This document shows, piece after piece, positions 12,774 to 28,977 of a stretch of DNA of 64,000 nucleotides; the stretch's first letter is position 1, and every line of letters begins with the position of its first letter. Both the position numbers and the translations under genes were made by a program. Source of the stretch: Halobacteriovorax sp. (lineage in GTDB: Bacteria; Bdellovibrionota; Bacteriovoracia; Bacteriovoracales; Bacteriovoracaceae). Location: the NCBI GenBank assembly GCA_002720865.1, contig PBIO01000011.1:248001-312000 (forward strand), given 5' to 3'. Under the pieces are notes generated by a model that was not told where the DNA came from, ran no database searches, and saw nothing but the letters and a program-made list of their open reading frames with translations.

Positions 12774-12780
12774 AAATACT

Positions 12781-12799: not shown

Positions 12800-12802
12800 T
12801 TC

Positions 12803-13786
12803 TTATATATTCCCGCCCATCAATTTACTAATATGTTTCGTGTACTCAAACTCGTCACATATAATTTTAATCGAGGCGGTTAGCGGAACTGCTAAAAACA
12901 TACCTGAAACTCCCCAGATCATTCCCCAAAGAATCAAGGCCAATAAAATCGTAATTGGATGAAGACCTAAGTCATCCCCCATTAGCTTGGGCTCAAGAAC
13001 ATTTCCAACGAGAAATTGAATGACAAGAAGTCCGGGAAGAAGAACAAAGACCTGCCAGCTAATACCAAATTGAAGAAGGGCCACGGGCACCGTAATTAAA
13101 ACCGCAAAAAGTGACCCAACATTAGGAATAAAATTAAGCATAAAGGTAAGAATGGCAAACATAAGAGCTAAGTCGAGTCTTACTACGCTCATCAACCCAA
13201 AAGAAAGACCGGCCGTTAAAATAGAAATAAAGATTTTATTGGTAGTGTACTTTGAGATCCCTTTACTAATTTTCTTGAGTACTCCCTCTTCCTCTCCCTG
13301 CTTAGTACCAATAAGTAAGAACAGTAGAAAAATTCCAACGAGGAGAGAATCTCCAACAATATGTGTAAGTGAGCCTCCCATTTTCTTAATAAAACCTAAG
13401 ATGGGAAATTTTGAAATATACCCGAGAATTTGATTGCGATCGAGAGGAACACCCTTCGCTGTTAGAAAATCAACAGTGGTTTGACCGAAGATCAAAAACT
13501 TTTGCTTATAAAGGTCCGCTCCTGAAATAAAACCCTTTAGGCTCATCATGGTCCCCATAACCAGCAAAGTGATCACTACAACTACGATAGTAATACTAAG
13601 AATCGTTGAAACAGAATTCGGCAGTTTAAACTTTTTTCCAATCCAGTCCACCAGCGGCAAAACCGAATAATAGATAAACAATGAAAAGATAAAGGGAACA
13701 AAGACTGCGCTAGCAAACTTTAAGACAACGGCAACGGCGATGATCGCCAGGGTAAACAAAGACCCAGTACTAATTCGATTTTCCAT
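12803..13786 (-). CDS. AI-2E family permease (PerM/YdiK type)
   Basis: 327 residues with seven to eight hydrophobic segments. The family pattern is visible: paired N-terminal helices (SLFTLAIIAVAVVLKF, FVPFIFSLFIYYSVLP), a hydrophilic central part, and the C-terminal FIPNVGSLFAVL ... LEPKLMGDDLGLHP block that marks this family. Members move small molecules or ions across the inner membrane; some have been linked to AI-2 efflux, others to Na+/H+ exchange, so substrate is open. The start ATG has no good ribosome site. It follows lon after the lon terminator and may be a separate unit. Confidence 0.88.
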   Translation of the reverse strand: MENRISTGSLFTLAIIAVAVVLKFASAVFVPFIFSLFIYYSVLPLVDWIGKKFKLPNSVSTILSITIVVVVITLLVMGTMMSLKGFISGADLYKQKFLIFGQTTVDFLTAKGVPLDRNQILGYISKFPILGFIKKMGGSLTHIVGDSLLVGIFLLFLLIGTKQGEEEGVLKKISKGISKYTTNKIFISILTAGLSFGLMSVVRLDLALMFAILTFMLNFIPNVGSLFAVLITVPVALLQFGISWQVFVLLPGLLVIQFLVGNVLEPKLMGDDLGLHPITILLALILWGMIWGVSGMFLAVPLTASIKIICDEFEYTKHISKLMGGNI

Positions 13787-13801
13787 AGGTCTATTTTGGA
13801 C

Positions 13802-13827
13802 AAAAAAAGACCCTCTGTAAAAGAGGG
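13802..13827 (-). terminator. Terminator of lon
   Basis: On the minus strand AGAGGG-like and complementary CCCTCT arms (plus 13811-13816 and 13822-13827) form a 6-bp stem with a 5-base loop, followed by seven T on the minus strand (plus A run 13802-13808). It lies 32 bases after the lon stop. Confidence 0.75.
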
Positions 13828-13858
13828 CCCTTGATTGCGCGATTTTTGTAGCTAATGG

Positions 13859-16276
13859 CTAGTTGGCCACTCCCATTTCTCCTGGATTTTCGTCTTTAAG
13901 GACTTTAAGACCAACAACTTTCATGAACTTTTCTGGTTCAGTAAGCTCTAAGGCCAGCTTAAGGACGTCATCAACGTGAGCAACTGGGTGGATAGTAAGT
14001 CCTGCCTGAATTTCCTCTGGAATTTCAGTAAGGTCTTTCGCATTTCCTTGTGGAATTACGATGGTGTCTACACCTGCTTGCTTTGCGGCGAGCATCTTTT
14101 CTTTTAATCCACCGATTGGAAGAACTCTTCCCCTAAGAGTCACTTCACCTGTCATGGCCACTGTTTGGAATACTGGAATCCCAGTAATTGCCGACACTAG
14201 GGCCGTAGTCATTGTAATACCGGCCGACGGTCCATCTTTTGGCGTCGCCCCTTCCGGTACGTGAACGTGGATATCATTCTTGGAGTACCACTCTGCATCG
14301 ATTCCGAGCTGAGGGCTAATTGATCTTACATATGTGAGTGCAGCTCTCGCTGACTCCTGCATCACATCACCTAATTTACCAGTTGTTTGGATTTTCCCAG
14401 TTCCTGGAACAGTGATCACTTCAATATTTAGGATTTCTCCTCCTACTGAAGTCCAAGCAAGTCCGTTAACAAGTCCAACTTGTGGAGCATCCTCGATCTC
14501 TTTCCCATCTCTTTTCTTAGGTCCAAGATACTTTGCTAACTGCTTAGGTGTTACATTAAATTTTTTACCTGGCTCGTGCTCTTTTTCAACAACCTCTGTA
14601 GCAATTTTTCTACAAACAGTGTTGATAAGTCTTTCAAACTCACGAACTCCAGCTTCTCTAGTGTATCCACGAACAACATCAGTCATAGCCGCGTCGTTCA
14701 TGGTTACTTTGTACTGCTCAAGACCGTTATTTTTAATAGCTTTCTTAAGAAGATACTTTTTACCAATCTGCATTTTCTCAGATGGCGTATAACCAGAGAC
14801 ATTGATGATTTCCATTCTGTCACGAAGTGGACCAGGAATTCTTCCAAGGTCGTTTGCTGTCATAACAAACATAACTTTAGAAAGGTCGTACTCAACTTCA
14901 ATATAGTGATCACCAAAGTTTTTATTTTGCTCAGGATCAAGAACTTCAAGCATGGCCGAAGCTGGATCCCCTCTCATATCAGAGCTCATCTTATCAATCT
15001 CATCGAGAAGGATAAGTGGGTTTGATGTTCCCGCTTTCTTAAGAGCGTTAACAATCTTACCTGGCATAGCACCAACATAAGTTCTTCTATGTCCACGAAT
15101 CTCTGATTCGTCTCTTACACCACCAAGAGAAATTCTTTGAAATTCTCTTCCTAGTGAATCCGCAAGGGATTTAGCAATCGAAGTTTTACCAACGCCTGGA
15201 GGACCTGCCAGACAAAGGATTGTTCCTTTACCTTCTTCAGTTAGAAGTGAGCGAACCGCAAGGTACTCTACAATTCTATCTTTTACGTCCTTCATTCCGT
15301 AGTGTCCGTTATCTAGAACTTCACGGGCATGTTTAACTGAATTATTGTCTTCAGTATATTCTCCCCAAGGAAGATTTAGCATCCAGTCGATATAGTTTCT
15401 AACAACTGCTGCTTCAGCCGACATTGGAGACATTGACTTAAGCTTCTTGATCTCTTTTGCCGTCTTAAGTTTCGCTTCTTCAGGCATATTCTTAGCTTCA
15501 AGCTTTTCTTCCATCTCTTGGATGTCAGTTTTGCCATCGTCTTTTTGACCAAGTTCTTTTTGAATCGCGTTCATTTGCTCATTAAGGTAGTACTCTTTTT
15601 GGGACTTCTCCATCTGAGTTTTAACACGTGATCTTATTCTTCTTTCAACATTGATGATTTCAATTTCACCCTGCATCTTTTCAAGGAGTAGATGAAGCCT
15701 CTTCTCAACTTCTACTGCTTCTAGAATTTCTTGTTTTTCAGGGATCTTCATCGTTAAGTGTGCAACGATAATATCAGCAAGACGTGAAGGGTCTGTAATA
15801 GAAGAAATACTCATCAGAAGCTCTGGTGGAATTCTCTTATTAAGTTTCACATACTGCTCAAAGATACTCTTGATGCTTCTCATTGTAGCTTCAAGATTCA
15901 CTTGATCATTTACGCTTGTATTACACTTTGTAACATCGGCCCAATAACCATCATTAGATGAATGGAACTCATTAATGTCAGCTCGGTATTTACCCTCGAT
16001 AAGAACCTTTACCGTATTATCTGGTAAACGTAGCATCTGGATAATGTTTACAACTGTTCCAACGTCATAGACGTCTTCACGGTCAGGATTCAATACGCTG
16101 GCATCCTTCTGAGTCACTAGAAAGAGTTCATTATTATTCTTTGCAGCTTCTTCAAGCGCAGCAATTGATTTTTCACGACCTACGAATAGGGGAACAACCA
16201 TATGAGGAAAAATAATGACGTCTCTAAGCGGAAGAAGAGGGTATCGCTTTGATGTTTCAGACTTGGACTCCGGCAT
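13859..16276 (-). CDS. lon: ATP-dependent protease Lon
   Basis: 805 residues, standard for bacterial LonA. It unfolds and degrades damaged and regulatory proteins in the cytoplasm as a hexamer. Order: N-terminal substrate domain opening with YPLLPLRDVIIFPHMVVPLF, coiled-coil region, AAA+ domain with Walker A GPPGVGKTS (about 355-363) and DEIDKM, then the protease domain with catalytic Ser684 in PKDGPSAG and Lys727 in GGLKEK. The ATG follows a strong AGGAGGT. It is separated from clpXP by a gene on the other strand. Confidence 0.97.
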   Translation of the reverse strand: MPESKSETSKRYPLLPLRDVIIFPHMVVPLFVGREKSIAALEEAAKNNNELFLVTQKDASVLNPDREDVYDVGTVVNIIQMLRLPDNTVKVLIEGKYRADINEFHSSNDGYWADVTKCNTSVNDQVNLEATMRSIKSIFEQYVKLNKRIPPELLMSISSITDPSRLADIIVAHLTMKIPEKQEILEAVEVEKRLHLLLEKMQGEIEIINVERRIRSRVKTQMEKSQKEYYLNEQMNAIQKELGQKDDGKTDIQEMEEKLEAKNMPEEAKLKTAKEIKKLKSMSPMSAEAAVVRNYIDWMLNLPWGEYTEDNNSVKHAREVLDNGHYGMKDVKDRIVEYLAVRSLLTEEGKGTILCLAGPPGVGKTSIAKSLADSLGREFQRISLGGVRDESEIRGHRRTYVGAMPGKIVNALKKAGTSNPLILLDEIDKMSSDMRGDPASAMLEVLDPEQNKNFGDHYIEVEYDLSKVMFVMTANDLGRIPGPLRDRMEIINVSGYTPSEKMQIGKKYLLKKAIKNNGLEQYKVTMNDAAMTDVVRGYTREAGVREFERLINTVCRKIATEVVEKEHEPGKKFNVTPKQLAKYLGPKKRDGKEIEDAPQVGLVNGLAWTSVGGEILNIEVITVPGTGKIQTTGKLGDVMQESARAALTYVRSISPQLGIDAEWYSKNDIHVHVPEGATPKDGPSAGITMTTALVSAITGIPVFQTVAMTGEVTLRGRVLPIGGLKEKMLAAKQAGVDTIVIPQGNAKDLTEIPEEIQAGLTIHPVAHVDDVLKLALELTEPEKFMKVVGLKVLKDENPGEMGVAN

Positions 16277-16621
16277 AGCACCTCCTGTACTATTTGAGTT
16301 TTTCTTCCGTAACCGTCGACATCTTGTCCACTCGGAAGAACCGTATACTCTATTTTAACCCTAACTTTGGAAAATTAGTGAGTCTTTTTTTACGGCGAAA
16401 ATTTCCCGACTAAGTGAGACAACATTAAATCACAGGTATTTACCCCCTCCGAATACCCCTATTTATGGGCACTTCGAGCGTTATTTTTTATTACTTCCTG
16501 ATGACAGTTTTTTTTAGTTGAAAAAAAAATTGAAATTCATATCTATAAAAAGCGCCCTGAAGGGTTCTACTCAGTTACTAAAGTACTGATTTAAGTTAGC
16601 CTTTTTAAATACCGACGAGAA
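16277..16621. other. Divergent gap between lon and the HEWAH peptidase gene
   Basis: 345 bases with no gene that I can support. It is AT-rich, with T and A tracts at about 16503-16530, and must hold the lon promoter (left part) and the promoter of the right-hand gene. I could not settle on a convincing -35/-10 pair. A short dyad GCGCCCTGAAGGG lies at 16551-16563. Confidence 0.5.
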
Positions 16622-17584
16622 ATGGTGAGAAACTATAAGAGTGCAGCTTCTATTCTAACTATTATGCTTACAGGCAGTGCCTGTGAGACCACTGGTGAAA
16701 AGTTTCAACAGAAGTTTCAAGGAACAATCGCCTCTGTTACGACTCCAAGTACTGAAAAAGAGATGAGAAGGCTGACTAAAGATGGAAAGACCTTCCCTAA
16801 CCCTCAAGAATTAACAAGGGTTATAAGTAAACCTGGAGACCTTCCAGGAGGAGAGCCTTGCCCGCCAGCGGCTCGTAAAAGCTCTTCGAATAAATCTGTA
16901 GCAAAGGGAAAGTCGCCCTTTAGAAAGAATGTTACTAATAGTGGAACTTACGGGATGTATTCTTATTCCCTTAAAAGACATAAAGGTCCAAGACGTGGCT
17001 GCTTACCTGTTGAAAATGTTTCTAAACAGGATGCTATAAAGGCACTTGCCTCTCAGAACTTAACTTATAGGGCCGGAAGTGGTCACGGCAAGGTAAAAGA
17101 CTCTGAGGTTAGAGCTCTTGGGGCAGCAATTTTATCAGTTCAGTATTTAAATGGTGGTCCCCTAGCAATGGGTAAGCCGGCTAAGAATCAACCGAATCCC
17201 CTTCCTATTGAGTTTAGAGATCAAAAAGGAAGTCAGCAAAAATGGGAAAAGATTGAGATCGGAAGATCTGGTCATATGCACTATGGAACCAGCGTTGCTC
17301 AGCATGTACATGAGTGGGCCCATTTAATTGGAAATAATGGTGGCTATGAAAAATTTAGAAAAGAAGTAGGTGTTCCACCTTACTGTAATGTTTCAGGCTA
17401 CTCTGCTAACAACCCGAAGAATTCCAGAAGAAAAGAGTTTAATGAGCATTTTGCGGAGGTCTTAACCGCTTTTGTTACTGAACCAGCTTCACTTAAAAAT
17501 CATTCGAATAAGGCCTGTAAAAAAGCTTTTGAATTCTTTCGAAAGTTCTTTAAGAAAGGCGACCGTTATAAAGAGTGTATGTAA
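16622..17584 (+). CDS. Exported (probable lipoprotein) zinc metallopeptidase
   Basis: 320 residues. The N-terminus has a hydrophobic segment ending LTGSAC, a lipobox with Cys21. HVHEWAHLIGNN contains the HExxH zinc motif (230-234), and about 40 residues on NEHFAEVLTAF supplies a plausible third ligand (Glu275 or Glu279), a gluzincin-like layout. The region before it is basic and Ser-rich with several Cys. I do not recognise the exact family. It sits on the opposite strand between clpX and lon, with convergence on clpX. Cleavage of cell-wall or prey proteins is conjecture. Confidence 0.82.
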   Translation: MVRNYKSAASILTIMLTGSACETTGEKFQQKFQGTIASVTTPSTEKEMRRLTKDGKTFPNPQELTRVISKPGDLPGGEPCPPAARKSSSNKSVAKGKSPFRKNVTNSGTYGMYSYSLKRHKGPRRGCLPVENVSKQDAIKALASQNLTYRAGSGHGKVKDSEVRALGAAILSVQYLNGGPLAMGKPAKNQPNPLPIEFRDQKGSQQKWEKIEIGRSGHMHYGTSVAQHVHEWAHLIGNNGGYEKFRKEVGVPPYCNVSGYSANNPKNSRRKEFNEHFAEVLTAFVTEPASLKNHSNKACKKAFEFFRKFFKKGDRYKECM

Positions 17585-17641
17585 GACTCTTTAGTTCCTT
17601 TATCATTTCAATTTATTTAGGTTATTGAGGTAGGAAATAAG

Positions 17642-17667
17642 TTGAGCCTAACTTTCGCTAGGCTCAA
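17642..17667. terminator. Probable terminator between clpX and the peptidase gene
   Basis: TTGAGCCTA (17642-17650) is fully complementary to TAGGCTCAA (17659-17667) with an 8-base loop. It lies 12 bases after the clpX stop and about 58 bases after the convergent peptidase stop. The T tail on either side is modest, so termination is likely but not certain. Confidence 0.6.
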
Positions 17668-17679
17668 AGATCTGGCTTC

Positions 17680-18993
17680 TTACGAAGCCGTTTCGATATC
17701 TTTTTTAGCTTTTAGAGTTGATGAGGGCTTATCTGGGAACTTCTTCTCCCCTTCAATAAGCTTAGGGTTCTCTTTTCCTAAAATTGAATCATGGGTAACA
17801 AGAACTTTGGCAATCTTGTCGTTGCTTGGAATATCGTACATCACATCGAGCATAGTCTGCTCTAGGATGGCACGCAGTCCCCTGGCCCCAGTCTTCTTAG
17901 CTAATGCAATACGAGCCACTTCTTTTAGGGCCTCAGGCTCGAACTCAAGTTCGATACCGTCAAACTCAAAGAGCTTTTCGTACTGCTTAGTAATAGCGTT
18001 CTTAGGTTCAGTAAGAATTGAAACTAAGGCATCTTCATCTAGCTCTTCTAAAAGAGCATTGACAGGAAGACGTCCAATAAATTCTGGAATTAGACCAAAT
18101 TTTGATAAATCTTCTGATTCAATCCCACCTAGTTTTTCAACTACCGACTGTTCAACATCTTTATTAGTTTCTCCAACGGCAAAGCCCATAGGTCTTTTAG
18201 TCATCCTTTTTTCGATGATTTTATCAAGCCCAACAAAAGCACCTGCTACAATGAAGAGGATATTTTTTGTATTTACTTGTAAAAATTCCTGCTGAGGATG
18301 CTTGCGCCCACCTTTTGGTGGTACTGCCGCAACAGTTCCCTCTACTAATTTTAGTAGGGCCTGCTGTACACCTTCACCAGAAACATCTCTTGTAATTGAT
18401 GGGTTCTCTGATTTTCTAGCAATCTTATCGATCTCATCAATATAGATAATTCCTCTTTCTGCTCTTTCAATATCGTAATCACAGTTTTGAAGAAGGTTTA
18501 GAATAATATTCTCAACATCCTCACCAACATATCCAGCTTCAGTTAATGAAGTGGCATCAGCGATGGCGAAAGGAACATTAAGGTATTTAGCAAGAGACTG
18601 AGCGATTAATGTCTTACCAGAACCTGTTGGCCCAGCAAGAAGAATATTTGATTTTGCTAATTCAACTCCATCATCTTTTCTAGAATTTCCACTGTGGGCA
18701 ATTCTCTTATAATGATTATGAACAGCAACTGAAATAATCTTTTTAGCTCTACTTTGCCCGATCACATAAGAATCAAGATGCTCTTTAATCTCATGTGGCT
18801 TAGGTACATTATCAAGAGCCGCTTTAGACGTTGTCTTAAGAGAATCCTCATAAATGATGTCATTACAAAGTTCGATACATTCGTCACAAATATAACATCC
18901 GGGACCAGCTATCAGTTTCTTTACTTCCTTCTGTGACTTTCCACAGAAATTACAGTGAAGGGTACTTCCGTAGCTTCCTTTTTCTTTTGTCAT
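17680..18993 (-). CDS. clpX: ClpX, AAA+ unfoldase of ClpXP
   Basis: 437 residues, standard. The N-terminal zinc-binding domain has CNFC (14-17) and CDEC (36-39). The AAA+ module shows Walker [13 protein letters not shown] (about 120-131), the pore loop GYVGEDVE, Walker [11 protein letters not shown] and the IGF-type ClpP-docking region (here [12 protein letters not shown]). It recognises and unfolds tagged substrates and feeds them to ClpP. It lies 22 bases downstream of clpP on the same strand, so both are probably cotranscribed. Confidence 0.97.
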
Positions 18994-19015
18994 AGTCTTC
19001 CCTTATTTTTAAATC

Positions 19016-19630
19016 TTAAGCTTTCGCTTTCTTTTCAATTTTATTATCAATTAATCCAAGTTCAATGGCCTCAGTTGGAGAGAGGTAATTATCTCTATCC
19101 GTCTCAGCAACAATCTTGTCCATCGTCATATCGATAGCAGAATGCTTGATATAGATTCCATTAAGCTGATCTTTTAGATCTTGAATCTCATTGGCCTGAA
19201 TTTGAATATCAGAACATTGTCCTCTGGCACCGCCTAATGGCTGATGGATCATAATTCGACTATGAGGAAGAGCATACCTATGCCCTGCTTCACCTGCCGT
19301 TAATAATAAAGATCCCATTGATGCTGCCATACCTAAACAATAAGTATGAACTGGGCAAGAAATGTACTGCATAATATCGTAGATCCCAAGACCTGCGTAA
19401 ACAGACCCACCTGGGCTATTAATATAAAAATGAATTGGTGCTTCAGGGTCAGATTGCTCCAGAAAAAGCATTTGTGCCACTAGTAAGTTAGCAACAGTGT
19501 CATTTACCTGGGTACCAAGGAATACAATCCTGTCTAATAAAAGACGTGAATAAATATCGTATTGTCTCTCCCCTCTGGCCGTTTGCTCAATAACAATTGG
19601 GTTAGGGATGTGCATTTTAGTATCGGTCAT
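19016..19630 (-). CDS. clpP: ClpP protease subunit
   Basis: 204 residues, full family length. Catalytic Ser104 is in GMAASMGS, His129 in MIHQPLGG, and the Asp lies in the [12 protein letters not shown] segment (about 178-180). The tetradecameric chamber works with ClpX, encoded next, and probably with ClpA encoded near 50 kb. GGAG stands 7 bases before the ATG. No trigger-factor gene precedes it in this window, unlike the common tig-clpP-clpX order. Confidence 0.97.
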
Positions 19631-19840
19631 TAAACTTCTCCGTTCTCGAACTATTTTAAATAGGATTTACTATTTTCTTTTCGGGTACTTAGACCCAAAT
19701 CTTTAGTAACAAATCATACGGATTCTAGGAATTTTAAACAAGGTCCTAAGGGCCGTAATCCTGCGTAAAAAGGCCATATGAGTCATTCCTGACAATTTAG
19801 GACAATTGAAGCGATGTCTAAAATGATGACGTGCCGGGGG

Positions 19841-19869
19841 TTGAAATTGTCCCTGATAAGCCTTATCTT
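19841..19869 (+). promoter_or_regulatory. Probable promoter of the peroxiredoxin gene
   Basis: TTGAAA (19841-19846) and TATCTT (19864-19869) are spaced by 17 bases, about 53 bases upstream of the ATG. The GACAATT/AATTGTC dyad (19801-19807 and 19845-19851) and a nearby GACAATT direct repeat flank the -35 and could bind a regulator; this is inference. Confidence 0.45.
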
Positions 19870-19921
19870 TTCCCGAACTGAAATAAGACAAATTAAGCCT
19901 GTTTTAACAGAGGAGAATACT

Positions 19922-20527
19922 ATGTCAGAAAAAACGTACCCAACGAGACTTGTAGGTAACCCAGCACCTGATTTTAAAGCTGATGCCCTAGTTCAAGGTG
20001 ATTTTAAAAACCTTTCTCTTGCCGATTATAAAGGTAAGTGGAAACTACTTTTCTTTTACCCACTAGATTTTACTTTTGTATGTCCTACAGAGATTACAGC
20101 TTTCAACGATGCATCTGAAAAATTTGCAGCTCTTAACTGCCAAGTAATCGGTTGTTCAGTTGATTCAAAATTTTCTCATTTAGCGTGGAGCAAGCAACCA
20201 AGAAACCAAGGTGGACTTGGAGAGCTTCAGATCCCTCTACTTGCTGACATGACAAAAGAAATTGCTAAGGACTACGGAGTTCTTCTTGAAGGTGGCGGTG
20301 TTGCTCTTCGTGGAACTTTCCTAATCGACGACAATGATATTATTCAACATTCTTCAATCAACCAACTAGGTGTTGGTCGTAATGTTGATGAGTACCTAAG
20401 ACTTGTAGAAGCATTCCAGTACACAGCTAAGCACGGAGAAGTTTGTCCTGCAGGTTGGACTAATGGTGCCGACACAATGAAGCCAGATCCAACTGGTTCT
20501 CAAGAGTACTTTGGTAAAATTAAGTAA
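19922..20527 (+). CDS. Typical 2-Cys peroxiredoxin (AhpC/Prx1 type)
   Basis: 201 residues from the ATG at 19922, chosen because it follows GAGGAG at good spacing and starts the conserved fold; an upstream in-frame start adds 36 unlike residues. It reduces hydrogen peroxide and organic peroxides in the cytoplasm. Peroxidatic Cys54 is in DFTFVCPTE, with Thr51 before it; resolving Cys175 is in GEVCPAGW. The [12 protein letters not shown] segment and the C-terminal tail ending in a YFGKIK helix match the Prx1/AhpC group that is sensitive to over-oxidation. No AhpF-type reductase is next to it, so thioredoxin is the likely reductant. Confidence 0.95.
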
Positions 20528-20561
20528 TTTTACTCAAAACTAAATTGAGTTAATATATAAG

Positions 20562-20583
20562 GGGCGCTTTATGCGCCCTTTAT
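20562..20583 (+). terminator. Terminator of the peroxiredoxin gene
   Basis: GGGCGC (20562-20567) pairs with GCGCCC (20573-20578), loop TTTAT, followed by TTTATT. It ends 15 bases before the GTG start of the DedA gene. Confidence 0.8.
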
Positions 20584-20597
20584 TATTGGAGTTACGA

Positions 20598-21206
20598 GTG
20601 GAAGCAGCCCTAGAATACATAAACGCAAATGCAGCTAATGCACCCTATATTATCTTTGGATTATTACTTTTGGCTGGATTTAATGTTCCTGTGTCTGAAG
20701 ACATTATGCTATTCACCTCTGCTCTCCTCGCGGCCAAGAATCCAGAGCTTCTTTACCCTCTCTTTATTGCCGTATTTGCTGGTGCGTATTTAAGCGACGT
20801 AATTTGTTATGCTTTTATGGGACGCTTTTTAGGTGAGAAAATTTTTAAGATTAAATTTTTTAAATCCATGGCCCCGCCGGAAAAAATCGCAAAAGTAACT
20901 GAGTTTTATGAGAAGTACGGAATCATAACTTTGATACTAGGTAGGTTTATTCCATTTGGTGTTAGAAACGCCCTATTCCTAACCGCAGGACTTGGAAAAA
21001 TGAATGCACTTAAGTTCTGCATTTCTGACTTCATCGCTTGTACTATTTCTTGCTTGAGCTTCTTCTCTTTATACTACTACTTTGGAGAATCAGTAATTGA
21101 GTACGTAAAGAAGTTTAATTTGATAATTTTTGCTGTTGCTATTGTTGGCGGGATAATCTTTTTTATCAGAAATAGAAAAAAGAAAATTGCTGCAAATAAT
21201 CTCTAA
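20598..21206 (+). CDS. DedA-family membrane protein
   Basis: About 202 residues from the GTG at 20598, which has GGAG 6-7 bases before it. An ATG at 20571 is in frame but lies inside the terminator hairpin of the preceding gene, so I reject it. The protein has four to five hydrophobic segments and the family motifs NVPVSEDIMLF near the start and GRFIPFGVRNALFLTAG in the middle (the F/YxRxxxPxxR-type loop). DedA/VTT proteins act in the inner membrane as lipid scramblases or in proton-dependent envelope homeostasis. A specific substrate cannot be told. Confidence 0.9.
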   Translation: MEAALEYINANAANAPYIIFGLLLLAGFNVPVSEDIMLFTSALLAAKNPELLYPLFIAVFAGAYLSDVICYAFMGRFLGEKIFKIKFFKSMAPPEKIAKVTEFYEKYGIITLILGRFIPFGVRNALFLTAGLGKMNALKFCISDFIACTISCLSFFSLYYYFGESVIEYVKKFNLIIFAVAIVGGIIFFIRNRKKKIAANNL

Positions 21207-21308
21207 GGTATCAATATTCCTCATTTAAATAATTTTTGTGAAATTTACGATATTTCTGTATATTGTAGCTAAATCTCATTAAAACTAGGACTATCTAGAG
21301 GAGTGAAT

Positions 21309-21644
21309 ATGAAGTCGATTATTCTAATCATTGCATTTTTAATAAGCACTAACACATTTGCAGCCAATGTTTCAGATACCTTTAAACGAACTAACCTTGA
21401 AATGCTTGCTCTTATGTTGACCGTTATCGAACCTGATGAAGCAATTCAAGGGATTAATAGCGTTGCCTTCAAAGCAATCAAACCAAGCACGATAAATGTT
21501 TCTATTTCTCATCACGCGGAATTCAAGGATTCTGAGATTGAGGAACTTAAAAGCGAATATAAAGAAGAAGTTGCTGACATGGCCAGAATTATGGGTCTCT
21601 CAGGATACAAGACACAGGTTAATTTCAAGTTTTCTAAAAATTAA
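21309..21644 (+). CDS. Small exported protein
   Basis: 111 residues from the ATG at 21309, chosen over a GTG two codons upstream because GAGGAG lies 6 bases before it. A signal peptide (MKSIILIIAFLISTNTFAA) leads to a short mature region with charged residues and no motif that I recognise. It has no cysteine in the mature part. It forms its own unit with a strong terminator directly after. Confidence 0.72.
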   Translation: MKSIILIIAFLISTNTFAANVSDTFKRTNLEMLALMLTVIEPDEAIQGINSVAFKAIKPSTINVSISHHAEFKDSEIEELKSEYKEEVADMARIMGLSGYKTQVNFKFSKN

Positions 21645-21652
21645 TGGTAGCT

Positions 21653-21688
21653 AAGGATAAGTGAACCTCACTTATCCTTAATTTTTTT
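21653..21688. terminator. Perfect 12-bp stem terminator shared by convergent genes
   Basis: AAGGATAAGTGA (21653-21664) is exactly complementary to TCACTTATCCTT (21668-21679) around a 3-base loop, followed by a long T run on the plus strand. The right arm is also the last four codons, with stop, of the convergent minus-strand gene, so the hairpin is partly coding. Confidence 0.8.
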
Positions 21689-22354
21689 TAGCTTCCAGGA
21701 AATTGTATAATCTGGAGGACAGGCACCAAACTTAAAGTCATTTTCAAAATCATTTAAGTATTCAAACTTACTCTTATCATTTTTTTCCTCTTCCTCTTCA
21801 TCAAAATCATGAGCCTCAGATGAATTTAAAAATAAAAAATAAGATCCTTCCAACTGCCCTATTTCCAAGCGAACTTTTTCTGGTTTGTTGATTTCAAAAA
21901 TAGCTCCTTCCCTTATAAAAAACTCTTGGTCATAGGAAAAATCAGTTTCAAAGATATTTTTACTTAAATGACAATTATTGGGTTCTAAATGAAAAATTTT
22001 CTTATCTTCAAGCCAGAGATTTCCATGCTGATGAAACTTAACATCATACAAATATTCAACCTGACAGCTCTTGGTATCGATGCTCAGTTTTAAAACAGAT
22101 GGTCCAACTTCAATTTGGCGTGACTGCAAATCATCAAAGTCAAGGAATGAAATTGCATAGAACGGAGTATTCACCGATTGATAGTAGCTATATACATCGT
22201 CCCCCATAACTTCATGTTTTCCATTTTTTAGGCAGCCAGTCTCTACGATTTCGTAGCGACCTTCAGGAAGAGTGGTTGTATTTCTTCGACTCGCAACAAC
22301 AACAGTTATCACGCTTAAAATTATAAAAATAAAAAAAACAACCGGTTTTGCCAA
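21668..22354 (-). CDS. Membrane-anchored protein of unknown function
   Basis: 228 residues starting at a TTG with AGGA upstream and only 3 bases after the stop of the previous minus-strand gene, so the two are likely translated together. One N-terminal hydrophobic segment (about 4-21) anchors it. The rest is acidic and beta-rich with several Cys. An acidic run (DEEEEEKND) is near the C-terminus. I recognise no family. Confidence 0.65.
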   Translation of the reverse strand: MAKPVVFFIFIILSVITVVVASRRNTTTLPEGRYEIVETGCLKNGKHEVMGDDVYSYYQSVNTPFYAISFLDFDDLQSRQIEVGPSVLKLSIDTKSCQVEYLYDVKFHQHGNLWLEDKKIFHLEPNNCHLSKNIFETDFSYDQEFFIREGAIFEINKPEKVRLEIGQLEGSYFLFLNSSEAHDFDEEEEEKNDKSKFEYLNDFENDFKFGACPPDYTISWKLKKIKDK

Positions 22355-22357
22355 AAG

Positions 22358-23179
22358 CTATTCCTTTGAAAGAAGCTCTATGATTCTTTCATATTTTTTT
22401 ACATTTCTTCTATAGAAGTACTCACCATCAAAATACAGTTTATTCTTTTTAGACTCGAGTTCAGCTTTCCCCTTAAGCGCAAACTTAAGAGCATCCATTT
22501 CCTTGAAAAAACCAGTGCTAATTTTCCTCTTATGGTCTACCTTATTATTTAATAAGAAACTAACTGCCTCGAGATCCCCAAAATAACTCGATATCATAAC
22601 CGGAGTAACATCATATTTTTGATCTGGAAGGTCTATCTCAACGTCTAAGTTTAATAATATTTTATAGAGAGACTTGGAGCTAAAAAGGTATCGGAATTCC
22701 AATTCTTTATTTTCAAAAAATGTAAAGAGATTACCGGCGGCATAATGGGTTAGCAAAAATCCATTTTCATCAAACTCTTTTAGGGTAGCAATTGGTCTAA
22801 TTAACTTTTTAAGAATCCTTTGAACAATATAAGTTTCTCTATCCACGCTAATTTTTATGACTGAGTTAATGGCCTCTTTAGAGAAGAGATAAGAAAAACG
22901 TTTTTTTGTACTTAGAAAGTCTATAAAGTCTTCAATTTTGTCTATTTTAACATATTTATAAGAGTTAACTACCGCATACAGTGCCTTCTTATCTACTTTC
23001 TCAGGAAGGCCCAATTCAACTAATTTCTTAGCTAAAGAGAATTGCCCAGTCTCTATAAGATTAAACAAGTAGTTTTCTGCTTCTAATTGCAGTCGAGGAG
23101 TATTAACCAGTCCGGCTCCCAAAAATGAACCTAGGCAAAAAAATAAAATAATCTTTTTCAGGAGAATGAAATTAAACAA
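22358..23179 (-). CDS. Exported ankyrin-like protein
   Basis: 273 residues from a TTG start with a weak AAGG site. The N-terminal segment (LKKIILFFCLGSFLGAGLV) is a signal peptide or anchor. The segment DVTPVMISSYFGDLEAVSFLLNN (about 200-222) matches the core of an ankyrin repeat; the rest may hold further, degenerate repeats with spacing near 33 residues (for example YAAGNLF). It probably makes protein contacts in the envelope. It is the upstream partner of the TTG-started membrane gene and divergent from the cytochrome/DUF1553 gene. Confidence 0.65.
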   Translation of the reverse strand: MFNFILLKKIILFFCLGSFLGAGLVNTPRLQLEAENYLFNLIETGQFSLAKKLVELGLPEKVDKKALYAVVNSYKYVKIDKIEDFIDFLSTKKRFSYLFSKEAINSVIKISVDRETYIVQRILKKLIRPIATLKEFDENGFLLTHYAAGNLFTFFENKELEFRYLFSSKSLYKILLNLDVEIDLPDQKYDVTPVMISSYFGDLEAVSFLLNNKVDHKRKISTGFFKEMDALKFALKGKAELESKKNKLYFDGEYFYRRNVKKYERIIELLSKE

Positions 23180-23343
23180 CTACTAAGCCTTCTTTTAATT
23201 AATGCTGTACTAGATAATTTTATAGGGAAAAGATAGTTCCATAAAGAACTATAACCTCCATGCGCAGCATTATAAAATTACCAAATAAGGCGCTGATTCA
23301 CTTGCTCTTCCCTTCTCCTTGAAAGATAATTTTTTTGACCTAA

Positions 23344-25926
23344 ATGACAAATTTTTTAAAGCTTTTACATCCTCTTTTTGTTCACTTTCCAATCGCCATA
23401 AGCGTGATTTTAGCAGTCATTATTTTAAATAAAAGACTAAGAGAAAAGTTTTTCTTTGAACTACAAGTTATTAACTTTCTTTTTATATTAGTAACTGCCA
23501 TAAGTGGCTACTTCTACCTAGGAACAATTGACTACTCCGCCCCTCAATTGCTCGAACATAAACTTACATCCTACTACCTTCTTCCGATTATTCTTGTTTT
23601 TACCGTTCTTCTCTACTTCAAAGAAGAATTTAGAAAGAATCCAATTATTGTCATACTTGGCACCTGGATTCAATTTCTAATAATTGGATATATTTCCTTC
23701 TTAGGAGCAACTTCTCATTACGGAAATTTTTTCACAAACAAAAAACTGAAACTCCCGTCAAAGAAGTTTCACCATAGTAATGCTTCGATAAAACACCTCG
23801 AAGAGAAAGTTATGCCCATCTTAAGACATCGATGCCTTAAATGCCATAACAGCAAAACCCCCTCGAAAGAACTACGCATGGATAATTCGATCCAATTTCT
23901 TATAGACCTTCAACGAAAAAACTTAATCTCAAACTGTAATAAAAATGAAAGTGAGTTTTATAAAAGATTAACTAGACATGATGACTCTAAAAAGATGATG
24001 CCATTAAATAGAGGACCACTTTCGGAACACGAAATCAAGATAATTGGAGATTGGTTAGACCAAACCTGTGAACTCCCAAAAGATCTCTATAAGTCCCTAG
24101 ATCATTGGAGCTTTAAAAAAGTTATAAAACCAAAGATTGAAAAAAGATCAAAGTCTCTTAATCCGATTGACTACTTTTTAAAAACTCAAAATATAGAATC
24201 GGCCTCGGAGGACTTAATCAAGAGAAGAATCTACTCAAGCCTTACTGGACTAGTCTATGTCGAGAAGAAAAAGAAAAAGGAAAAGGTTGAGCAAGTTATA
24301 AAAAATGCACTAGACTCGCAGCATTTTGGTGAGAGGATCGCAAGCTATTGGTTAAGACTGCATCGATACGCGGATACCATAGGCGGAGATCAAGATTCTT
24401 ACCGCTTAGGCTCATTTCAGTATCGAGATTATATTATTAAGGCTTTCAATAAAGATACCGGTTTAAACAATATAATCTTTAACCAACTAGCTGCCGACCA
24501 GGTTCATCAAAGAGAGGAAGAAAGCCTACATGCCACAGGCTTTCACCTCGTAGGAGAAATTGACCCGGAAGAAGCAGGGAAAGACTTAGTACCGACTAAG
24601 CTAACCTACTCTGACGATGTCCTTGGAACCACTTTTGCTATTAATTTAGGGCTAGATACCCGCTGTGCCAGATGCCACGATCACCGATCTAACCCAATTA
24701 CTCAAAAACAGTATTATCAACTATCAATTCCATTTCTATCGGTGAAAGACGACTATTTCTCATTACAAAGGTTTGAGGAGGATGAAAAAGAACTTTCTCT
24801 TCTTGAGTCACAATATAAAGAGAAAGATTTAAAAAAATATATTCTTGAAACTCAAAAATTCTTTTCAAAGAGAAGAAGTATTTCACTGAAAAATGAAAAG
24901 GATATATCTGAAACGTTCATCAGAGTTAGAGGCGAACCTTTTCGGCATGGAGAAAGTGTTAAATTTGCATTACCGGATTTTTATAAAGGTGATAAAACAA
25001 ATTTAGATTTCTGGAAGGAATACCTTCAAAAAAACAAAGGGCTAATTTCTACGAATAATAGCCACAGGGCGGTTCTAGGTGAATGGATCATTAATGAGCA
25101 ATTTGGAGTTGGACTACATACTGCCCGAAATTTAGTTAATCATTTTTGGGCGCTTTTCTTTGGTAGGTATTTAATAGAGAACCCTGGAGATCAGAACTTT
25201 AACTCTAAAGAGCCTAAAAATAGTAAGCTTCTAAATTATTTGGCTCATTACTTAATTGAGAATAATTGGTCAGCCAAAAAGTTAAGCAAACTTATAGTAA
25301 GTAGTAATGCCTTTCAAGCAAAGTCTACCGGATATAATAAATTAGAATTCAATACCTATAAATTTTTCAAAGCCGTACCAAAGTTTCCTGGAGAAATAAG
25401 AGATCAAATTTTACAGCTTTCGGGGCAGTTAGTTTACCAATCTTTTGGTCCCGGAATTCAAGGAAAGATCTCAGAAGAATTAATGCAACAAATTAGTAAT
25501 GATTTTTGGAAAGAAGTTTATTCAAAAAAAGAAGAGTTCAAAAAATCTATCTACTTATTTAAAAAACGTTCTCTAATCAATCCTCAGCTCTACTTTATTG
25601 AAGATAGAATTAGTGCTCTTCCAAGGCTAGGGTCAGATAAACCTCGAATCAATGACGAAATCAGTTTCTTTATCAATTCAGACCTTGTTAAAAATGCCGC
25701 CCATTCTGTTTCTAAGAAATTAATTCTTGAAAAAAGAGAATACGAGGAACAGTATTTCCATCAAGCTTTCTTGAAAATACTAGGAAGAAAGCCAAATGAG
25801 GAAGAAGTCGACAGTATTCAAGCATATATAAAAAACATAAAAATTAATAAAAAATCTATTGAAAGAGTACTTTCAAGTTTTTGTCAGTCTATGTTTAGTT
25901 TAAATGAGTTTAGATATATTCATTAA
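23344..25926 (+). CDS. Planctomycete-type cytochrome/DUF1549/DUF1553 protein with membrane N-terminus
   Basis: 860 residues. Residues 1-125 contain four hydrophobic segments opening with HPLFVHFPIAISV, like the DUF2231 membrane domain. CLKCH (164-168) marks a PSCyt1-type cytochrome domain. Then come a DUF1549-type region with RLHRYADTIGGDQD (about 339-352) and RCARCHDHRSNPIT (440-453, a second CxxCH), and a C-terminal DUF1553 region with NHFWALFFGRYL and FQAKS. This architecture is common in Planctomycetes and Verrucomicrobia; its function is not well known. It would sit in the inner membrane with the haem parts outside. It starts without a good ribosome site and is followed 8 bases later by the DUF1501 gene. 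Confidence 0.87.
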   Translation: MTNFLKLLHPLFVHFPIAISVILAVIILNKRLREKFFFELQVINFLFILVTAISGYFYLGTIDYSAPQLLEHKLTSYYLLPIILVFTVLLYFKEEFRKNPIIVILGTWIQFLIIGYISFLGATSHYGNFFTNKKLKLPSKKFHHSNASIKHLEEKVMPILRHRCLKCHNSKTPSKELRMDNSIQFLIDLQRKNLISNCNKNESEFYKRLTRHDDSKKMMPLNRGPLSEHEIKIIGDWLDQTCELPKDLYKSLDHWSFKKVIKPKIEKRSKSLNPIDYFLKTQNIESASEDLIKRRIYSSLTGLVYVEKKKKKEKVEQVIKNALDSQHFGERIASYWLRLHRYADTIGGDQDSYRLGSFQYRDYIIKAFNKDTGLNNIIFNQLAADQVHQREEESLHATGFHLVGEIDPEEAGKDLVPTKLTYSDDVLGTTFAINLGLDTRCARCHDHRSNPITQKQYYQLSIPFLSVKDDYFSLQRFEEDEKELSLLESQYKEKDLKKYILETQKFFSKRRSISLKNEKDISETFIRVRGEPFRHGESVKFALPDFYKGDKTNLDFWKEYLQKNKGLISTNNSHRAVLGEWIINEQFGVGLHTARNLVNHFWALFFGRYLIENPGDQNFNSKEPKNSKLLNYLAHYLIENNWSAKKLSKLIVSSNAFQAKSTGYNKLEFNTYKFFKAVPKFPGEIRDQILQLSGQLVYQSFGPGIQGKISEELMQQISNDFWKEVYSKKEEFKKSIYLFKKRSLINPQLYFIEDRISALPRLGSDKPRINDEISFFINSDLVKNAAHSVSKKLILEKREYEEQYFHQAFLKILGRKPNEEEVDSIQAYIKNIKINKKSIERVLSSFCQSMFSLNEFRYIH

Positions 25927-25934
25927 AGGGTAAA

Positions 25935-27284
25935 ATGATTAATAGAAGAGATTTTATTAGATACAGCTCTATTGGCATGACTGCTAGTCTAAGCGGATGT
26001 CTCCCGGGAATTGATGGCTTATTTACTAAAAACAAAAATTTGAAGAATATAGTCTTTTTAACGATGAATGGTGGCTTATCCCAAATGGAATCATTTGATT
26101 ATAAGCCAGAACTGATTAAAAGCGATGGTAAGAGTATCTATTTACCAGAAAGTGAAAATCCCTATAGCTCAATTATCAAGCCTAGAACTAGCTTTAAACA
26201 ATATGGTGACTCTGGTGCTTGGATTAGCTCAGCTTTCCCTGAACTATCAACGATTGCCGATAAGCTAACTTTCATAAAATCCTGTAAGACCTTTTCTTTG
26301 TCTCACTTTCCTGCTTCAAGGTATCTTTTCACGGGCTCAGCAGTTCCTGATCAGCCATCAATTCTCTCTTGGCTAGGCCATCTCTTAAGCCCTAAGCCTA
26401 AAGATTTACCTGCCTCTATTTCAATGTATGATAGTAATAGGCCATTCCCTCCATTTAGCGATGGAATGATGAAGAATATTTTTTTACCAGATTCAGCAAA
26501 GGGTTATCTTTTAAAGCATAGTGTAATTGAAATGTTAAAATCGTCTGAAATTACCGACCCTTATGAGCTAAAGTCAATTCGCTTAATCAATCAGCTAAAT
26601 AAAAAAGGCCCTTTAAGGAGTCATAATGAAAGCATTGAAAGAGCAGCTGCTTTTGATCGATATAGTTCTTTTAAGAACTCAATACAAAGCACAGTAGATT
26701 TTGAAAAAGAGCCTGAATATATTAAAAAGCAATATGGCTTAAATGACCCTAGTTCATCCTCCATGGCCAAAAGGTTAATCACAGCGAGAAATCTCCTAGA
26801 GTCAGGAGTTAAGGTTATAAATATTAACTCAGGTGGATTTGGAATGTTTGGATGGGATGCCCATCACTCATTTGATAGTTTTTTTGATATTGCTAAAGAG
26901 GTAGATAGGCCCATCACCGGATTTATCAACGACCTAGAACAAAGAGGCTTGCTTGATTCAACATTAGTAGTTTTTTGGACTGAATTCGGAAGATTGCCCT
27001 CCGTCGAATCTTTGGATCCCAGTGATAATAAAAAAGGAAGAGACCATAACCCCAATGCCTTCACTATTTGGCTTGCTGGAGGTGGTATTAGTCCTGGAAA
27101 ATCAATAGGAACCACTGATGAGCTCGCCTATAAGGCCGTGGAGGATGTTTATTCTATTCATGATATTCACCACACAATTTTTAAGCTCGTGGGTATTGAT
27201 TTAAATGATCTGAACTACTGGCATGAGGGAAAATTAAAAACCTACTTCAAACAAAGAACGAGAATGATAAAAGGGCTGATTTAA
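25935..27284 (+). CDS. DUF1501 family exported protein (Tat signal)
   Basis: 449 residues. NRRDFIRYSS gives a twin-arginine signal (Arg4-Arg5), followed by SLSGC (Cys22), a lipobox, so it may be a Tat-exported lipoprotein. The body has the DUF1501 sulfatase/alkaline-phosphatase-like layout: MNGGLSQMESFDYKP near the start, SLSHFPASRYLFTG in the middle and WTEFGRLPSVES with GRDHNPNAFTIW toward the end. It pairs with the preceding cytochrome gene, as these two families usually do. Reaction and substrate are unknown. AGGG precedes the ATG. Confidence 0.87.
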   Translation: MINRRDFIRYSSIGMTASLSGCLPGIDGLFTKNKNLKNIVFLTMNGGLSQMESFDYKPELIKSDGKSIYLPESENPYSSIIKPRTSFKQYGDSGAWISSAFPELSTIADKLTFIKSCKTFSLSHFPASRYLFTGSAVPDQPSILSWLGHLLSPKPKDLPASISMYDSNRPFPPFSDGMMKNIFLPDSAKGYLLKHSVIEMLKSSEITDPYELKSIRLINQLNKKGPLRSHNESIERAAAFDRYSSFKNSIQSTVDFEKEPEYIKKQYGLNDPSSSSMAKRLITARNLLESGVKVININSGGFGMFGWDAHHSFDSFFDIAKEVDRPITGFINDLEQRGLLDSTLVVFWTEFGRLPSVESLDPSDNKKGRDHNPNAFTIWLAGGGISPGKSIGTTDELAYKAVEDVYSIHDIHHTIFKLVGIDLNDLNYWHEGKLKTYFKQRTRMIKGLI

Positions 27285-27363
27285 AAAATCCGTCATATTG
27301 ATAGATTTAGTTAGAAACCTCAATCAAAGATTAAATAAATTCAATCACTTAACAACCATGTAA

Positions 27364-27431
27364 GGACTTCGTGGCAGTGTAAATAGTATAGTGGCAAGGG
27401 GTCGTAGCTTGCCTGTCCACCTCGGCCGTCC
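27364..27431 (+). other. Nested inverted repeats, possible structured leader RNA
   Basis: In the AT-rich gap before the 27444 gene lies a GC-rich island with nested complementary arms: GGAC (27364-27367) with GTCC (27428-27431); GTGGCAG (27371-27377) with CTGTCCAC (27413-27420, one bulged T); and GCAAG (27394-27398) with CTTGC (27408-27412). All pair on the plus strand transcript, 12 bases before the downstream ATG. It does not match a riboswitch or tRNA that I know. Structure is by eye only. Confidence 0.35.
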
Positions 27432-27443
27432 CATAACTAGTTC

Positions 27444-27869
27444 ATGATTAAAATAAGCGACATAACCCCAGACATGGGGAAATTACTGAGACCTTGGGGA
27501 GGGTCAAAAGGGATGAGGGAAAACGAAAATCAGTTGGAGAACGTTGTATCTCTAGAGAACTGGAAAAAAATTAAAGACGCATCACTGGCAAAGTGGGAAC
27601 CACAAAGCCTTGATGAAAAAAGAGCCGAGAAGCAGTTTAAGGATTATTTTAATATTCTAAGTTTCTCAGAGCTTATAAATGAGTCTACAGACATTATTAA
27701 AGAGCTAAATCAAAGTCCACTTAGTACAGAAATTACTATGAAGTCTAAGATTCTTTTAAGTCAATTTAGTAAGAGACTCGGCGATGAATCAAAAGAAGTT
27801 GCTGATACCTTTCAAGACATGCGCAAAAGAATTGAAGATAAAATCGTAGATCTAAATAATAGACTTTAA
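27444..27869 (+). CDS. Soluble helical protein of unknown function
   Basis: 141 residues, or 118 if translation starts at the ATG of residue 24 (27513), which follows GGGAGGG; the first ATG has no ribosome site. No signal peptide or membrane segment is seen. The C-terminal two thirds (about 50-141) look helical and charged, with heptad-like spacing. I recognise no family. It has its own terminator and a possible structured leader. Confidence 0.62.
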   Translation: MIKISDITPDMGKLLRPWGGSKGMRENENQLENVVSLENWKKIKDASLAKWEPQSLDEKRAEKQFKDYFNILSFSELINESTDIIKELNQSPLSTEITMKSKILLSQFSKRLGDESKEVADTFQDMRKRIEDKIVDLNNRL

Positions 27870-27873
27870 TAAA

Positions 27874-27900
27874 AGGAGGCGTAAGCCTCCTCATATTTTT
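27874..27900. terminator. Bidirectional terminator
   Basis: AGGAGGC (27874-27880) pairs with GCCTCCT (27885-27891), loop GTAA. A T run follows on the plus strand and an A run precedes it. It separates the 27444 gene from the convergent small exported coiled-coil gene. Confidence 0.8.
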
Positions 27901-28312
27901 AGAAAATTTTCTTAAATAGTTTCTTTAATTTTTTTGTTTTCTTTTTACGCCTTTCTCTTTTCTTCTGTTTCTTAGTGGCTGCATGTTCTTCGTGACTTAA
28001 GTGTGATTGAACTCTTTTTAAATTTCCTTGTGAAATCTTCAGCTCTTTTTGAAGCTGATTAATTTGCGCTTTTTTTGCAGCAATTTGAGCATTTAACTTA
28101 TTTAAGGCAGCATTTTTCTGTGCTTGAGAATATCCCTTTTGATAACTCGCAAACTCTTTTTCAAAGCTCTTATTGATGGCTCTTAACCTTTTCTTTTGAC
28201 AATACTCTCGATCAAGTTGATCTTTTTGATTCAGGCATCCTTCAAGTGTTTTAGGGGCAGCGAATAGTTGGGTCGCCATAAATAGAGTAATAAGACTTAA
28301 AACAAGCTTCAT
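27899..28312 (-). CDS. Small exported coiled-coil protein with basic tail
   Basis: 137 residues. A signal peptide (MKLVLSLITLFMATQLFA) is followed by two CxnC-type cysteines (C27, C39 region), a long predicted coiled coil (about 65-105, with Lys/Gln/Leu heptads) and a very basic C-terminal tail (KKQKKRERRKKK and on). The basic tail could bind an acidic polymer such as nucleic acid or peptidoglycan components; this is inference. No family is recognised. It is a single gene. Confidence 0.65.
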   Translation of the reverse strand: MKLVLSLITLFMATQLFAAPKTLEGCLNQKDQLDREYCQKKRLRAINKSFEKEFASYQKGYSQAQKNAALNKLNAQIAAKKAQINQLQKELKISQGNLKRVQSHLSHEEHAATKKQKKRERRKKKTKKLKKLFKKIF

Positions 28313-28422
28313 GAATAATCTCCGTTTTTAATAATCCGATATAAAAATTCTACCTAAAAAGGCAAAAAGACGGCAGTGTTTTGATAAAATAAACAGTCAT
28401 GTCTATTTTGTAGACGAATTTC

Positions 28423-28977
28423 CTAAAGGGACTCTAAGCTCTGGTAATCATGGAGGACTTTCTGCCTTAGGAAGGCAATCTTCTCCTCCCCCCCATATCC
28501 TAAGAGTTCGGCTGTCTTTCTTAGGACCTCAAGATCTTTATTTGAAGACTCAAATTGATTCAAAAGAAAGACGATATTCTTTGTAAACCTCGCCACGTAT
28601 TCTCTGATGGACGCCCTTTCTTCTTCACTAGATTTTACAAATTCACAGCCAATTTTCGTAACAAAAAGAGCGTCGATCTCTGACTCTCCTTCAAACTTTC
28701 TAACTAGTCTGGCCTTTACCCTGATGATTTTTCGATCGAGCTCCTCGAGCTTCAAATGCATAAGTTGAGGCTTAGGTGTTGATAGCAAGTCGGGGATTGA
28801 GGGTAGATCTAACACAAGCGGAATGGCTGCAACCTCTGGTATATGAGGTAAGTTTTCAAGAAGAACTCCGCCTTCAGAGATATTTAAAATACGGGCCTTT
28901 AAAACATACTCATCATCCTGAAAGAGGACTTGTGTTTTAAGAGGGGCCCGTAAAAATGCTCTTTGAAAGCGGCTCAT
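28423..28977 (-). CDS. PilZ-domain protein
   Basis: 184 residues from the ATG at 28977, which starts one base after the phoH stop; a TTG 21 bases upstream inside phoH is the alternative, with poor spacing to its GAGG. The N-terminal part shows the PilZ c-di-GMP signature: RAFLRAPL (an RxxxR motif) and NISEGG (the N/DxSxxG motif) about 28 residues later. The C-terminal part is helical. It probably senses c-di-GMP in the cytoplasm. It is coupled to phoH. Confidence 0.8.
   Translation of the reverse strand: MSRFQRAFLRAPLKTQVLFQDDEYVLKARILNISEGGVLLENLPHIPEVAAIPLVLDLPSIPDLLSTPKPQLMHLKLEELDRKIIRVKARLVRKFEGESEIDALFVTKIGCEFVKSSEEERASIREYVARFTKNIVFLLNQFESSNKDLEVLRKTAELLGYGGEEKIAFLRQKVLHDYQSLESL

Follow-up and report, generated by a model that had tools for sequence, protein, structure and literature searches.

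The window (the whole 64,000-nucleotide stretch analyzed here) carries two adjoining genes encoding a membrane-anchored PSCyt1–PSCyt2–PSD1 protein and a DUF1501 protein, for which a redox-coupled role in the periplasm is the favored model, held at a probability of roughly 0.55. The pair is real, was correctly described in the initial annotation, and belongs to a known but uncharacterized family, of which it is a divergent yet recognizable member. It resides on an accessory segment at a variable genomic site, and its PSD1 gene is the only one in the genome.

Coding Capacity of the Gene Pair

Both open reading frames are uninterrupted and lie exactly at 23344–25926 and 25935–27284 in the ORF list of the window, in agreement with the earlier placement of the pair at 23344–27284 and the length of 860 residues given for its first product (Table 1). 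The two genes are on the same strand with a gap of 8 bp, and an AGGG stretch resembling a ribosome site directly follows the TAA stop codon of the first. Promoter and terminator scans yielded scores no better than chance, and no family among the NCBIfam profiles came close to its cut-off for the pair.

Table 1. Positions of the gene pair, its domains, and the accessory segment in the window.
Feature	Position	Strand	Basis
Accessory segment, missing from the same-genus genome G037	21183..27281		blastn against L057
113-aa ORF in the accessory segment, signal-like N-terminus	21303..21644	+	ORF list; PADLOC search, no match
228-aa ORF in the accessory segment, no Pfam family	21668..22354	-	ORF list, Pfam
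273-aa ORF in the accessory segment, weak ankyrin matches	22358..23179	-	Pfam, below cut-offs
860-aa protein, membrane-anchored (predicted), PSCyt1–PSCyt2 (DUF1549)–PSD1 (DUF1553), DUF2231-like N-terminus	23344..25926	+	ORF, Pfam, two CxxCH
DUF2231-like membrane domain, residues 1–150	23344..23793	+	Pfam 21.6 bits (below cut-off), phmmer, alignment
PSCyt1 heme-c domain (putative), residues 164–219, C164-L-K-C-H168 and Met219	23833..24000	+	Pfam 19.3 bits (below cut-off), alignment
PSCyt2/DUF1549 domain, residues 285–466, C441-A-R-C-H445	24196..24741	+	Pfam 143.8 bits
PSD1/DUF1553 domain, residues 575–828	25066..25827	+	Pfam 115.4 bits
Coupling junction: TAA stop codon, AGGG resembling a ribosome site, DUF1501 ATG	25924..25937	+	Sequence
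DUF1501 protein, 449 aa, Tat-type RR start, lipobox-like Cys22, predicted alkaline-phosphatase superfamily fold	25935..27284	+	Pfam, model

Domains and Heme Motifs of the 860-Residue Protein

The E-values obtained for PSCyt2/DUF1549 (PF07583; 9e-42, 143.8 bits against a Pfam cut-off of 29.8), PSD1/DUF1553 (PF07587; 3.5e-33, 115.4 bits against 28.5), and DUF1501 in the partner (PF07394; 2.9e-91, 307 bits against 27) exclude chance matches. The CARCHDH block assigned earlier to the DUF1549 type is found literally in the sequence; it contains one of the two CxxCH motifs of the protein, CARCH at residue 441, in which C441, C444, and H445 are invariant in an alignment of 37 sequences. The other, CLKCH at residue 164, is the CxxCH that had been ascribed to PSCyt1, and it opens a match to that profile (PF07635, residues 164–218) of 19.3 bits, under the Pfam cut-off of 22. 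The putative heme ligands Cys164, Cys167, His168, and Met219 are conserved in an alignment of 14 sequences. Over the PSCyt1 part, the family profile picks up two known c-type cytochromes, FoxE (6e-8) and, through its heme domain, hydrazine synthase alpha (6e-5), which counts in favor of a predicted c-type heme domain in the 860-residue protein.

The N-terminus is recognizable as the DUF2231-like membrane domain proposed in the initial annotation, though its match to PF09990 scores 21.6 bits, under the cut-off of 26.4. A phmmer search with this region matches DUF2231–PSCyt1 proteins of Bacteroidota, the best at 1e-8. Four helices are predicted within the N-terminal 130 residues (2–28, 40–60, 66–92, and 100–130) by a low-confidence model, the AlphaFold pLDDT of the membrane domain being poor, mostly 48–70. 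In the alignment of 14 sequences, His9, His14, and His72 of the domain are invariant, and of the two TM4 histidines of DUF2231 relatives, one is not kept in the 860-residue protein. Loops 29–39 and 92–100, as read from the sequence, are rich in Lys and Arg, which by positive-inside reasoning would place both ends of the membrane domain on the periplasmic face, together with the three invariant histidines, all predicted to sit at helix ends. Searches with the whole-length model in Foldseek and VIA gave no meaningful fold match, and none for PSD1 or PSCyt2.

Conserved Site of the DUF1501 Partner

The DUF1501 protein begins with MINRRDFIRYSSIGMTASLSGC. The RR pair at its start is invariant among 34 homologs, and a lipobox, LSGC, with the lipobox-like Cys22 can be read from the sequence by eye, so that the Tat signal and lipobox predicted for this partner are both borne out at the level of motifs. 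The residues of the twin-arginine start and of the WDxH-, EFGR-, and GRDH-type blocks are all present (R4, R5, W307, D308, H310, E350, F351, G352, R353, and H371).

A model of the protein (pLDDT 82.4) places it in the fold of the alkaline-phosphatase superfamily, which includes NPP, PafA, sulfatases, and LtaS (Z ~19). The match is to nucleotide pyrophosphatase/phosphodiesterase (NPP; VIA Z 19.3, rmsd 3.3, 246 aligned), with PafA and sulfatases ranking closely after it; the Pfam Sulfatase profile scores 21.8 bits, under its cut-off of 25. The DHG motif of the superfamily carries Asp-His metal ligands. In profile alignments to LtaS and sulfatases, with weak E-values (0.003–0.09) and a result consistent over five chains, the invariant EFGR block falls on this motif. 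Glu350–Phe351, invariant in 34 sequences, is thereby assigned to the position of Asp-His by profile alignment and superfamily knowledge, as opposed to residue-level structural superposition. In contrast to the canonical Asp-His metal pair of the superfamily, Glu-Phe thus appears to take the place of these ligands throughout DUF1501, which argues against a sulfatase label. The replacement is a trait of the whole DUF1501 family and is not peculiar to the present protein.

Apparently lacking the standard Asp-His ligands, DUF1501 may not carry out hydrolysis, and it is a real possibility, if not the one we would choose, that it serves the cytochrome without catalysis, as a binding partner or chaperone. 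The Glu-Phe pair is consistent with such a role, as is the variation among N, S, A, Y, and H at position 45, which lies in the ligand region of the first strand. Against it stands the invariance of His124, Asp308, His310, Glu350, Arg353, and His371 in 34 sequences, the present protein included, and this points to an active or metal site that is conserved, though of a different kind.

Comparison with Known Systems

The PSCyt1–PSCyt2–PSD1 plus DUF1501 systems of Planctomycetota, Verrucomicrobiota, Bacteroidota, and Acidobacteriota resemble the window pair in domain order, CxxCH motifs, tight linkage, and RR-type start. The window pair differs in being at most about a third identical to them, in its single copy, in the fusion of an N-terminal membrane domain, and in its surroundings, where no sulfatase, glycoside hydrolase, or carbohydrate-binding module was found.

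A three-gene set of Bacteroidota (for example, L094, L113, and L069) comprises PSD1, DUF1501, and DUF2231–PSCyt1, the last mostly as its own gene nearby. It contains the same three parts as the window pair, including the HPLxxHxP membrane motif, and L094 provides the best outside match of the 860-residue protein's N-terminus. Because DUF2231–PSCyt1 is mostly separate in Bacteroidota, the window can be described as joining the parts of the three-gene set in two genes, with the membrane domain attached to the PSD1 protein. This fusion is not unique to the window protein: a Runella contig encodes the same arrangement (L066, 1019–3451; 811 aa), with HPLVVHFP followed by two CxxCH motifs and an adjoining DUF1501 gene. 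The Runella protein is only ~21% identical overall and its very long branch attaches at another place in the tree, so the membrane fusion may have arisen twice. In the pair of a second genus of the host's taxonomic family (genome G056, contig C175, locus L052), the PSD1 frame is interrupted by one stop and runs off the end of the contig, so that the region of the N-terminal membrane domain is not visible.

An Accessory Segment at a Variable Site

Comparison by blastn with locus L057 of the same-genus genome G037 aligned window positions 14001–21182 with 10524–17697 and window positions 27282–27869 with 17707–18294. Only ~10 bp separate the flanking matches in G037, which is without the pair and the three small ORFs and whose neighbor genes are 97% identical at the protein level. 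The genome G038, also of the same genus, likewise has no copy of the pair; there an unrelated 378-aa gene occupies the same site, which has a VTT-protein gene on one side and a conserved 141-aa gene on the other. An empty site in one genome and another gene in the other identify a variable site and an accessory segment of 6.1 kb, an assignment well supported by the 97% identity of the genes flanking the empty site. At the segment ends, no mobile-element gene, integrase, transposase, tRNA, or direct or terminal repeat was seen. The neighbors were also considered as a defense island, an idea that was dropped with PADLOC scores at chance level only.

Distribution and Origin

Scanning of related genomes confirmed that the pair is unusual for its host group. 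PSD1 occurs in 5 of the 369 genomes of the phylum (two of the five as contig-edge fragments) and in only two genomes of the taxonomic family; the PSD1 of genome G276 is of a different, shorter type with no adjoining DUF1501. DUF1501-like matches are present in 110 of the 369 phylum genomes and are mostly weak, those above 300 bits being confined to the present genome (twice) and G056. On these counts, the phylum does not carry the pair as a vertically inherited trait: it is not widespread there, and the two same-genus genomes are without it. Its description as characteristic of Planctomycetes and Verrucomicrobia was apt as regards abundance, with 78–118 PSD1-type matches per genome in three Planctomycetota/Verrucomicrobiota genomes (78–135 once a MAG titled Proteobacteria joins those three), but too narrow, since the kind is also found in Bacteroidota (five PSD1-type matches in one genome), Acidobacteriota, and some gammaproteobacterial plasmids. 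With one PSD1 match, the present genome has nothing like the planctomycete complement of tens of PSD1/DUF1501 pairs per genome.

For both proteins, the best-scoring relative comes from the G056 pair, about a third identical. Among those scored, the remaining relatives (Planctomycetota, Verrucomicrobiota, Bacteroidota, and Acidobacteriota) do not exceed ~36% identity, with the phyla mixed. A nearer relative could be missed in these searches, which scored the top two first-look candidates of each genome in ~1,030 genomes of three phyla and took the best 80 of at least 585 relatives from a collection of 84,980 species. A search for close relatives by protein patterns in the 84,980 genomes returned none.

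In the trees, neither protein nests in Planctomycetota. The sequences from the window and G056 are probably sisters, with SH-aLRT values of 99 in the PSD1 tree and 98 in the DUF1501 tree that carry a long-branch warning. They have in common a FALPDxx[KR]G motif that is absent from the 148 other rows of 150, and a 3-residue insert that is also present in three others. The GC3 of the pair (0.308 and 0.322) equals that of the host (0.310 ± 0.032 for the long ORFs of the window), a composition check gave no foreign-DNA signal, and there is hence no sign of recent import. The G056 DUF1501 and PSD1 genes match the GC of their own contig, and for one gene beside the pair in G056, the taxonomic family contains a homolog of 47% identity.

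The sister relationship, the exclusive motif, and the native composition in both genomes, together with the family homolog of the G056 neighbor, could all reflect vertical inheritance from an ancestor of the taxonomic family, followed by loss in nearly all lineages. We consider this unlikely, because the presence of PSD1 in only two family genomes would demand very many losses. The joining of the two sequences may itself be a product of long-branch attraction: dropping either from the analysis shifts the other to a different place in the tree, and for DUF1501 the alternative of window plus Saccharobesus is not rejected (AU 0.62). For the three same-genus genomes compared, the presence or absence of the segment fits loss in G037 as well as gain here, and it is rarity in the phylum that tips the balance toward gain.

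A recent transfer out of Planctomycetota or Verrucomicrobiota would fit the abundance of the family in those phyla and the accessory nature of the locus. It is nonetheless distinctly improbable, given that no relative exceeds ~36% identity either among the two candidates scored per genome in the ~1,030 genomes of three phyla or among the best 80 of at least 585 loci from the 84,980-species collection, that the composition is that of the host, and that in neither tree does the pair fall inside a single phylum. Contamination of the assembly by another organism in the bin can be dismissed almost entirely, despite a genome contamination estimate of 4.36%, as the pair lies inside a 464-kb contig of the 4.9-Mb assembly, has host-like GC3, and is flanked on both sides by sequence collinear with a same-genus genome.

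The earlier suggestion that the pair may be acquired therefore stands with respect to its rarity, its accessory segment, and the empty site, whereas an origin in Planctomycetota finds no support. Horizontal transfer, old or repeated, is likely, and we conclude that the pair entered the taxonomic family, or moved between its members, by acquisition or exchange, and not recently.

A Model for the Module

In the redox-coupled model favored here, the 860-residue protein would be anchored in the inner membrane by its four N-terminal helices, with the heme-c domains in the periplasm, and the DUF1501 partner would be exported by the Tat pathway in the folded state and then retained as a lipoprotein. 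Together, the two proteins would oxidize a small periplasmic substrate, perhaps sugar- or ester-like, that DUF1501 binds or cleaves, and the electrons would reach the quinone pool or an oxidase chain by way of the cytochrome and its histidine-bearing membrane domain. The module would have arrived, or stayed while relatives lost it, within the 6.1-kb segment at the variable site. The host genome encodes a cytochrome-c assembly protein and TatC and, as far as these two show, could support maturation of c-type cytochromes and use of the Tat pathway. Confidence in any specific substrate is much lower than in the model as a whole. To our knowledge, no activity has been demonstrated for any PSD1, DUF1549, or DUF1501 protein. 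Also weighing against the model are the scores of PSCyt1 and DUF2231 under their Pfam cut-offs, the loss of one TM4 histidine, the apparent lack of Asp-His ligands in DUF1501, the surroundings of the pair with no sulfatase, glycoside hydrolase, or binding module, and the missing fold match for PSD1 and PSCyt2.

The initial annotation had left the function of the pair as not established, which is also the position of the literature: nothing is known about the functions of PSCyt genes, as stated for freshwater Verrucomicrobia (PMC5615132). In those organisms, PSCyt genes adjoin sulfatases and occur with carbohydrate-binding modules, and PSCyt proteins have been suggested to act in carbohydrate conversion on mono- or oligomers imported into the cell (PMC5615132). 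A limited literature search retrieved no report of DUF1501 or planctomycete cytochromes in Bdellovibrio.

A more specific proposal, which we regard as a long shot, is that of a separate, family-restricted lineage: a four-helix domain rich in histidines, which may bind heme b, would couple a periplasmic heme-c oxidase directly to quinones, in conjunction with a DUF1501 site of alkaline-phosphatase fold rebuilt around Glu in place of Asp-His. If true, this membrane-fused lineage with its Glu-based site would amount to a new class of redox-coupled enzymes in the periplasm.

More generally, PSCyt, PSD1, and DUF1501 genes number from dozens to more than 100 per genome in Planctomycetota and Verrucomicrobiota, where their function is not known and redundancy hinders genetics. 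The genome studied here has exactly one PSD1 gene, so a single knockout could test its function, and the membrane fusion, like the DUF1501 site that is conserved yet non-canonical, offers concrete, testable hints at mechanism. The value of the window pair is thus that of a single-copy test case for a known, uncharacterized family.

DUF1501 Family and Genes at the Variable Site

Judged from the DUF1501 family alignment (A2), an invariant Glu-Phe appears to replace, family-wide, the Asp-His metal ligand pair of the superfamily.

At the variable site of the same-genus genome G038, which lacks the PSD1–DUF1501 pair, the resident gene is homologous (29%, 9e-35) to the gene that adjoins the PSD1–DUF1501 pair in G056, a genome from another genus of the family; this coincidence may reflect either chance or shared cargo. 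A second small segment of the window, containing a 137-aa ORF, is absent from G037, the other same-genus genome.

The genome of L097, a contig titled Proteobacteria bacterium WB4_2_1501, has 135 PSD1-type matches, an abundance resembling that of Planctomycetota and Verrucomicrobiota, and the title "Proteobacteria" is probably a wrong label.

Features at the compared loci
Feature	Locus	Coordinates	Remark
Gene at G038 variable site	L058	6428-7564	
Gene adjoining G056 PSD1/DUF1501 pair	L052	2303-3505	homologue of L058 gene
Second small segment	window	27870-28423	
DUF1501 gene	G000:C33, L056	17946-19238 (locus)	phage contig, same assembly as window
Tail-protein matches	L159		near viral-contig pair
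DNA ligase	L154		near viral-contig pair
Nucleotide-sugar epimerase	L148		near viral-contig pair

Possible Association with Phages

The assembly containing the window also includes a 23.7-kb phage contig (G000:C33), which bears its own DUF1501 gene, separate from the window's copy, together with genes for a UvsX-like recombinase, a DnaB-like helicase, a DNA polymerase, and Hsp20. No PSD1 matches were found in this assembly beyond the window. One IMG/VR contig, equal to G000:C33 in length, bears an identical copy of this DUF1501 gene, and copies 76-81% identical occur on four further viral contigs; on one of these four, L203, the DUF1501 copy adjoins replication genes, as on G000:C33.

Complete PSD1–DUF1501 pairs are carried by IMG/VR contigs of up to 190 kb classed as viral (L144-L171), and these pairs form separate clades in both the PSD1 and the DUF1501 tree. 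Phages may be carriers of the PSD1–DUF1501 module.
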